Of a DNA stretch of 64,000 nucleotides, positions 2,199-40,722 are shown piece after piece (within the stretch, counting starts at the first letter, position 1; each line of letters starts with the position of its first letter). The DNA comes from an uncultured bacterium (GTDB lineage: Bacteria > Bacillota > Clostridia > Oscillospirales > Oscillospiraceae). The stretch lies in the NCBI GenBank assembly GCA_946056135.1, contig CAMGIN010000003.1, forward strand, positions 1-64,000. The letters run 5' to 3'. The translations under genes and the position numbers were made by a program. The notes beneath the pieces were generated by a model. It was not told the DNA's origin and searched no databases. It saw only the letters and a list, made by a program, of their open reading frames with translations.

Positions 2199-2298
2199 GG
2201 CGATTCGGTTGTGATCTGGATTTCCTGCTATATGCAGGAAATCCTGCTGGACGGTCTCTTGCTGGAAAACGTCGCTGATTTTTCAGCATTATTTGTAT

Positions 2299-2439
2299 CT
2301 ATTCAGTCGTGCATATATTTATGCGGTAAATGATCGTTTACGTTTGCACCAACTGTAGGGCGGGGTCATGACCCCGCCCTACAGTTGGTGCGACACTAAA
2401 CGATCACTTATATGAGAAACTTGGGGTACGACTGAATAG
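2299..2439. mobile_element. MITE-like palindromic element with outer 12-bp inverted repeats CTATTCAGTCGT/ACGACTGAATAG and a central 46-bp perfect palindrome (2346-2391)
   Basis: Inverted repeats read directly. Palindrome GCACCAACTGTAGGGCGGGGTCATGACCCCGCCCTACAGTTGGTGC. Confidence 0.6.
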
Positions 2440-2479
2440 TTACCATTATTTTATACTGGCTCCCGATTTTCGTACTACC

Positions 2480-8411: not shown

Positions 8412-8600
8412 ATGATGATCCATTTTGGAACCGGCGGCTGGCGAGCCATCATTGCGGACGAATTCACAAAGGAAAACATCCGCTTGGTCACGGCTGGGCT
8501 ATTATCATATAGAGATCATTATGAGACGGGTTTCCATGATCTTCTATCCCGAAAATCACGGAAGCAACATCGTGGCCTTGCGATGTCCCTGCGATAAAAA
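8412..8600 (+). pseudogene. Truncated N-terminal remnant of a phosphoglucomutase/phosphomannomutase-family gene
   Basis: 'MIHFGTGGWRAIIADEFTKENIRLVTAG' is the conserved N-terminus; homology stops abruptly after about 28 residues. Confidence 0.7.
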
Positions 8601-29879: not shown

Positions 29880-30169
29880 ATTACTTCACCTCTTTCAAAT
29901 TTCGCGGAGTATACCGCATTATCCGATATCTATGATACCGCATTTTTTTCCGTTTGTCCACCCTGTTTTTGTCATTGTAGACAAAAAGTTTCCAAAAAAG
30001 CATTTCGTATCGATACAAGTTGACCGAATTGCGGTCCAATGGCAAAAAGCGCGGAAAGCAGCCTTTCCGCGCGGATGATCGGATTTTTTCGGATACAAAG
30101 AACCGCCAATTGACCCTCCTCTACAGTGGGTGCTGTGAAAGCCAAACCTTCATGCGGCCAAGCGATGTC

Positions 30170-30203
30170 CCTGCGATAAAAAGTAGACACTTTTTATCGC
30201 AGG
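30170..30203. repeat. Perfect 15-bp-stem hairpin CCTGCGATAAAAAGT-agac-ACTTTTTATCGCAGG (family member A)
   Basis: Read directly. Confidence 0.7.
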
Positions 30204-40382: not shown

Positions 40383-40494
40383 AGAAATGCAAAATGATGG
40401 TATCCCCTTCCTCCCGAGGGGGATACCAACATTGCATGTTTTCCGGTCTATACGTGCTTTTCGACCTAACGCAGCAAGCTGAACATTTATATTC

Positions 40495-40621
40495 GCACGC
40501 ATTGTAGGGCGGGGTCATGACCCCGCCGACCAGCTAGGAAACGCAGTCAGGCAAAATAGACGTAAATATGCGAAACCATGCGTGCGTCGGCGGGGTCATG
40601 ACCCCGCCCTACAATGCGTGC
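40495..40621. mobile_element. MITE-like element with 36-bp perfect terminal inverted repeats, each holding the GGCGGGGTCATGACCCCGCC palindrome
   Basis: Left 40495-40530 and right 40586-40621 are exact reverse complements. Confidence 0.7.
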
Positions 40622-40722
40622 AAGCATAAACAATCATTTACTTCAAAGGCGAACAGGCCAAAGCACTCTCAACTCCACTCTCCTAACTCCACACTTCACA
40701 CTCACAACAAGGAGCAATTCCC

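Follow-up and report, generated by a model that had tools for sequence, protein, structure and literature searches.

The segment at 40504–40612 of the window, the 64,000-nt stretch of DNA analysed here, is very probably a REPIN, a non-autonomous element that is copied by the single RAYT of its genome and that in this case lies inside a separate palindromic frame. Two inverted, GTAG-tagged REP palindromes make up the element, and the RAYT of the same genome, a Y1 HUH transposase, would cut single-stranded REP hairpins beside GTAG. The putative substrate is single-stranded GTAGGGCGGGGTCATGACCCCGCC, with cleavage expected at YY|GTAG; this single-strand chemistry is modelled on that of E. coli TnpAREP. 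Copying is probably the work of one "tamed" transposase.

Anatomy and copies of the palindrome

The initial annotation described 40495–40530 and 40586–40621 as exact 36-bp reverse complements, and they are; the inverted-repeat listing (I2) gives wider arms of 45 nt at 40486–40530 and 40586–40630, which are 93% complementary. The core GGCGGGGTCATGACCCCGCC is indeed common to this palindrome and to a second one at 2346–2391 (core at 2354–2383), and the hexamers read as stated, CAACTG in the latter and GCATTG at 40495–40621. Because the window contains four occurrences of GTAGGGNNGGNNNNNNNNCC where shuffles predict 0.12, the palindrome is not a product of chance. The natural unit is the 109 bp from GTAG to CTAC, outside which the GCACGCATT arm and the frame constitute a different layer (Table 1). 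The shared TAAATGATYGTTTA flank that had been proposed is real, but at 40495–40621 only its right frame end is good (one mismatch) and the left one is degenerate.

Table 1. Features of the palindrome at 40495–40621 and of its sister copy in the window
Feature	Position	Strand	Basis
Left REP: GTAG + 20-bp palindrome GGCGGGGTCATGACCCCGCC	40504..40527	+	sequence, copy search
Spacer, 109-bp class (6/40 places)	40528..40588	.	copy layout
Right REP, inverted, CTAC at end	40589..40612	-	sequence, copy search
Left variable arm GCACGCATT, frame layer; pairs with right arm here	40495..40503	+	arm comparison
Right variable arm AATGCGTGC	40613..40621	-	arm comparison
Left frame end, degenerate, TGAACATTTA	40480..40489	+	sequence; repeat family D9
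Right frame end TAAACAATCATTTA, 1 mismatch to TAAACGATCATTTA	40627..40640	-	motif search
28-bp single-palindrome copy GTAGGGCGGGGTCATGACCCCGCCCTAC	2355..2382	.	copy search, layout
Left frame end TAAATGATCGTTTA, second copy	2327..2340	+	motif search
Right frame end TAAACGATCACTTA, second copy	2397..2410	-	sequence
Third, outer inverted layer (ATCTATTCAGTCGT ... ACGACTGAATAGTT) round second copy	2297..2441	.	outer-layer search

The copy at 2355–2382 is probably a collapsed doublet, as a 28-bp form would be the expected leftover of a deletion between two identical 20-bp palindromes. The outer layer at 2297–2441 (CTATTCAGTCGT..ACGACTGAATAG) recurs at other framed elements of the genome. Other repeats of the window include a 93% identical 27-nt repeat, GGCCTTGCGATGTCCCTGCGATAAAAA, at 8574–8600 and 30156–30182, each beside an inverted CCTGCGATAAAAA copy and representing another hairpin family, and a 112-nt direct repeat within 1–340 (87% identical, spacing 228).

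The palindrome belongs to a repeat family, as it had first been read, and the possibility that only two copies exist is dismissed by the presence of GGCGGGGTCATGACCCCGCC at ~40 places in the assembly (G000; 2.46 Mb, 231 contigs, 83% complete), eight of them cut by contig ends; the true copy number is uncertain because contigs break at REPIN repeats. An intact copy consists of two inverted GTAG-GGCGGGGTCATGACCCCGCC REP palindromes or of one alone, and the GTAG tetranucleotide adjoins the palindrome, as is typical of a GTAG REP. Measured from GTAG to CTAC, 22 copies are 135–136 bp long, six are 109–110 bp (including 40504–40612), three are 28-bp single palindromes (including 2355–2382) and one is 592 bp, the remaining eight being the contig-cut ones. 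Inverted doublets that lack a RAYT gene occupy 28 of the 40 places. The window copy at 40495–40621, the one copy checked for position, is intergenic.

The claim that arms match within each copy stands for both window copies, which belong to a minority. Among the 31 copies with both arms, the 8-base arms are identical in eight, where shuffling gives 2.4 on average (P about 0.001), and mismatched in 23, and mean arm identity over nine positions is 6.45 versus 6.10 in shuffles (P = 0.048). Matching is above the shuffled level but is no rule, and the independent divergence of arms that the initial annotation had named as its own refutation is what most copies display. Some memory of paired arms is retained, with no rule keeping them paired. 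The variable hexamer belongs to the frame layer and not to the REPIN; the strong covariation is inside the REP stem, when species are compared (see below).

These data also bear on the idea that the palindrome is not mobile and is kept by selection as an RNA or terminator structure. An RNA fold predicted to be very stable (−95 kcal/mol for 40495–40621) and a location between co-oriented ABC-transporter genes would suit such a role, but the arm mismatches in most copies argue against it, as does the absence of the REPIN of 40495–40621 from the orthologous region in all 19 related species that have both flanking genes, and we regard it as very improbable. These species include G032, the searched genome whose genes most resemble those of the window (83–91% identity over aligned parts), whose orthologous intergenic region holds an unrelated core in a different frame, a CAAATT-framed CCTTCCCC element. 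An Rfam scan of the window returned only two tRNAs.

The RAYT and its cognate REPs

The copy at C9:5750–6343 (~592 bp) has the GTAG-REP ends of the other copies and contains one intact Y1 ORF, the RAYT reading frame (C9:5811–6302; L035 459–953, minus strand). The check for a RAYT or IS transposase that the initial annotation had called for thus yielded a RAYT bracketed by matching REP ends. The protein matches PF01797 (Y1_Tnp) with E = 2.8e-7 and NF047646 (NCBIfam REP_Tyr_transpos, REP-associated tyrosine transposase) with E = 8e-22 and 77.7 bits, against a cut-off of 80. An alignment with E. coli TnpAREP (4er8, E = 3e-5) places HxH, WQ, R, the catalytic Y and the next N in register; the roles of the aligned TnpAREP residues have been described (PMC6006769). 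This RAYT is the sole Y1 gene in the 83% complete assembly, and several relatives have two to six RAYT matches per genome. On sequence features the family falls within the REPIN-RAYT group, and we infer that its members are mobilised by the RAYT at C9.

Inverted terminal repeats, high copy number and one copy with a transposase would also be expected of MITEs whose parent was an ordinary DDE transposon bounded by the same repeats. The transposase, however, is of the Y1/HUH and not the DDE type, the ends are GTAG-tagged hairpins, and no duplication is apparent by eye at REPIN junctions in other species (the computed duplication test covered frame ends), which makes a DDE origin highly improbable.

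Many RAYTs of relatives are flanked by inverted GTAG palindromes, and from genome to genome the stems of these palindromes vary through compensatory changes. In a set of 13 such REPs, chosen by hand to be of equal length, 99% of the stem cells are paired, and six of eight pairs covary with 28 two-sided changes, a level reached in 0 of 500 shuffles. Of 15 same-genus genomes that have a close RAYT, 11 contain the exact REP, against 6 among 58 others (P = 3e-6 in a one-sided Fisher test that ignores phylogeny and uses a RAYT threshold, E ≤ 1e-45, chosen after the table was seen). The closest RAYTs are hosted by Oscillospiraceae/Clostridiales metagenome genomes, many of them from ruminant guts. 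In other species the same REPINs lie mostly outside frames, and the GTAG is preceded by two pyrimidines, CT, TT or TC (YY|GTAG); CT is a described TnpAREP cleavage site (PMC8266576).

Counting against the REPIN-RAYT reading are the NF047646 score just below cut-off, the 28 exact REPs of G018, an incomplete assembly with no RAYT match, and the RAYT copy at C9:5750–6343 itself, which lacks a frame, unlike most REPINs of G000. Frames enclosing RAYTs were found in neither G000 nor G005; G032 and G028 have a framed repeat close to the RAYT, but the gene itself is outside the frame. At the RAYT locus of G032 (L112 1200–2260), tandem 70-bp repeats of GTAGGGGCGGCTATCAGCCGCCC surround the gene as a REP cluster.

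The species-specific frame

The frame, TAAATGATCGTTTA...GCACC / GGTGC...TAAACGATCATTTA, is an inverted, palindromic 14-bp motif separate from the REPIN. TAAATGATCGTTTA and its reverse complement have 200 and 206 matches in G000 with at most one mismatch (control, 1 and 0), and 320 kb of sampled G000 stretches contain 41 inverted frame pairs, 66–600 bp apart. Framed cores comprise the REP GGCGGGGTCATGACCCCGCC, GTAGGGGAGGGTCATTGACCCTCCC, GTAGGGGCCGATG.., a TCTCCC hairpin, the GTCATTGCGA repeat and a CCTTCCCC hairpin; one of the 41 units has no recognisable core. All nine GTCATTGCGA elements examined in G000 are in the TAAATGATCGTTTA frame. G032 has 99 such elements, 47 in paired CAAATTGGTGTTTG frames and 37 more beside a single one. 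Matches to CAAATTGGTGTTTG number 309/340 in G032, 274/294 in G005 and 1/0 in G000, and exact matches to TAAATGATCGTTTA number 2/0 in G032 with none in G005. The frame variants share xAAATnnnnGTTTx. An outer AACTATTCAGTCG layer is present within about 34 bp of at least 29 of 159 sampled frame ends, and paired examples exist.

Near-identical 159-bp framed TCTCCC elements occur at unrelated sites (L080 2306, 9744 and 18773; L073 6279; L071 10630, inverted), which suggests recent spread of whole framed units. At L084 13235, a AACGATTCAGTC..GACTGAATCGTT pair has only TAAATGAT between its halves and is either the remnant of a deletion or an outer palindrome that is empty. A unit ACGCACTTTGGGTGGTAGACGAACATCC...CAGTGCTATGG lies directly outside several frame ends (L049, L060, L061, L077, L083, L085 and L090), some copies being preceded by a frame end.

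The frame appears to travel with whatever hairpin sits inside. We tentatively propose, as a reading that could well prove wrong, that each frame-bearing species of this gut genus has one dominant 14-bp frame (xAAATnnnnGTTTx') that encloses unrelated hairpin families and is swapped wholesale between related species while the cores persist; this would be a second, undescribed mobilisation or capture system for hairpin DNA of any sequence.

How the frame arises can be read in different ways. There is about an even chance that it forms the terminal inverted repeats of a miniature transposon of its own, with a putative transposase that changes specificity between species and with REPINs and other hairpins as passengers. 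The identical 159-bp units, which have unrelated flanks and of which four are in one orientation and one is inverted, fit this origin, as do the near absence of framed units without a core, the switch of motif between related species round similar cores and the sequence shared by the variants. Against it, no autonomous framed element with a transposase was found in the 384 kb examined, where the longest paired unit is 600 bp, and frame ends have no target-site duplications of 3–9 bp beyond shuffles; the ends are TA, so that a TA duplication is uninformative.

Alternatively, the frame may be an older palindrome into the centre of which RAYT-type insertions land, so that palindromes nest in palindromes, a possibility that we consider rather doubtful. 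Published REP dimers in long palindromes (PMC3733652) set a precedent, most of these REPINs have no frame in other species, and some frames are themselves centred in the outer AACTATTCAGTCG layer. Over 16 positions, the two sequences that flank an unframed REPIN complement each other more than shuffled ones do (P = 0.002), which hints at a REPIN preference for palindromes; without the first four positions, however, the signal falls to P = 0.054 (positions 5–16), so that most of it comes from the YY|RR junction, possibly part of the element. The sequences outside frame ends have no excess of complementarity. That empty frames are almost absent and that non-GTAG cores use the same frame also speaks against insertion into a pre-existing palindrome.

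Comparison with known systems

A literature search restricted to open-licence papers found nothing specific on clostridial RAYTs or REPs and no account of several unrelated cores sharing one species-specific frame. The text of a 2013 survey (PMC3733652) does not mention Clostridia or Firmicutes, and a 2018 survey assigns class 2 genes mainly to Cyanobacteria, Bacteroidetes and Proteobacteria. The present family would extend RAYT/REPIN systems to a genus of Clostridia with many sequenced species, in which cognate REPs and RAYTs can be traced together. Hairpins nested in a species-specific frame common to unrelated repeats would make REPIN site choice, and any attraction of palindromes by palindromes, testable.

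The family resembles GTAG REPIN/BIME elements and their RAYTs (TnpAREP, IS200/IS605-like Y1 superfamily; PMC3116915, PMC2817692, PMC3733652) in its GTAG tag, hairpin REP and inverted (HH) doublet of about 110–140 bp. Further likenesses are a single RAYT with these REPs on either side, cognate REP-RAYT pairings that change from one species to the next, a YY cleavage context and an intergenic location. It departs from them in its host, an uncultured gut clostridium of Oscillospiraceae type, in a REP that is a perfect palindrome and in the second frame that holds most copies.

REP dimers in long palindromes are known from A. variabilis (GTAG-15), T. roseum (GTAG-23) and H. neapolitanus (CGTC-1), and in A. 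variabilis palindromes without a REP were not found (PMC3733652). As in those cases, the REP doublet is centred in a longer palindrome, but here one species-specific frame surrounds several unrelated core families. TIRtrons and TIRYTs are a further parallel, with Y1 transposases flanked by non-REP inverted repeats (PMC3733652); the TAAATGATCGTTTA frame differs in that no Y1 gene was found inside it.
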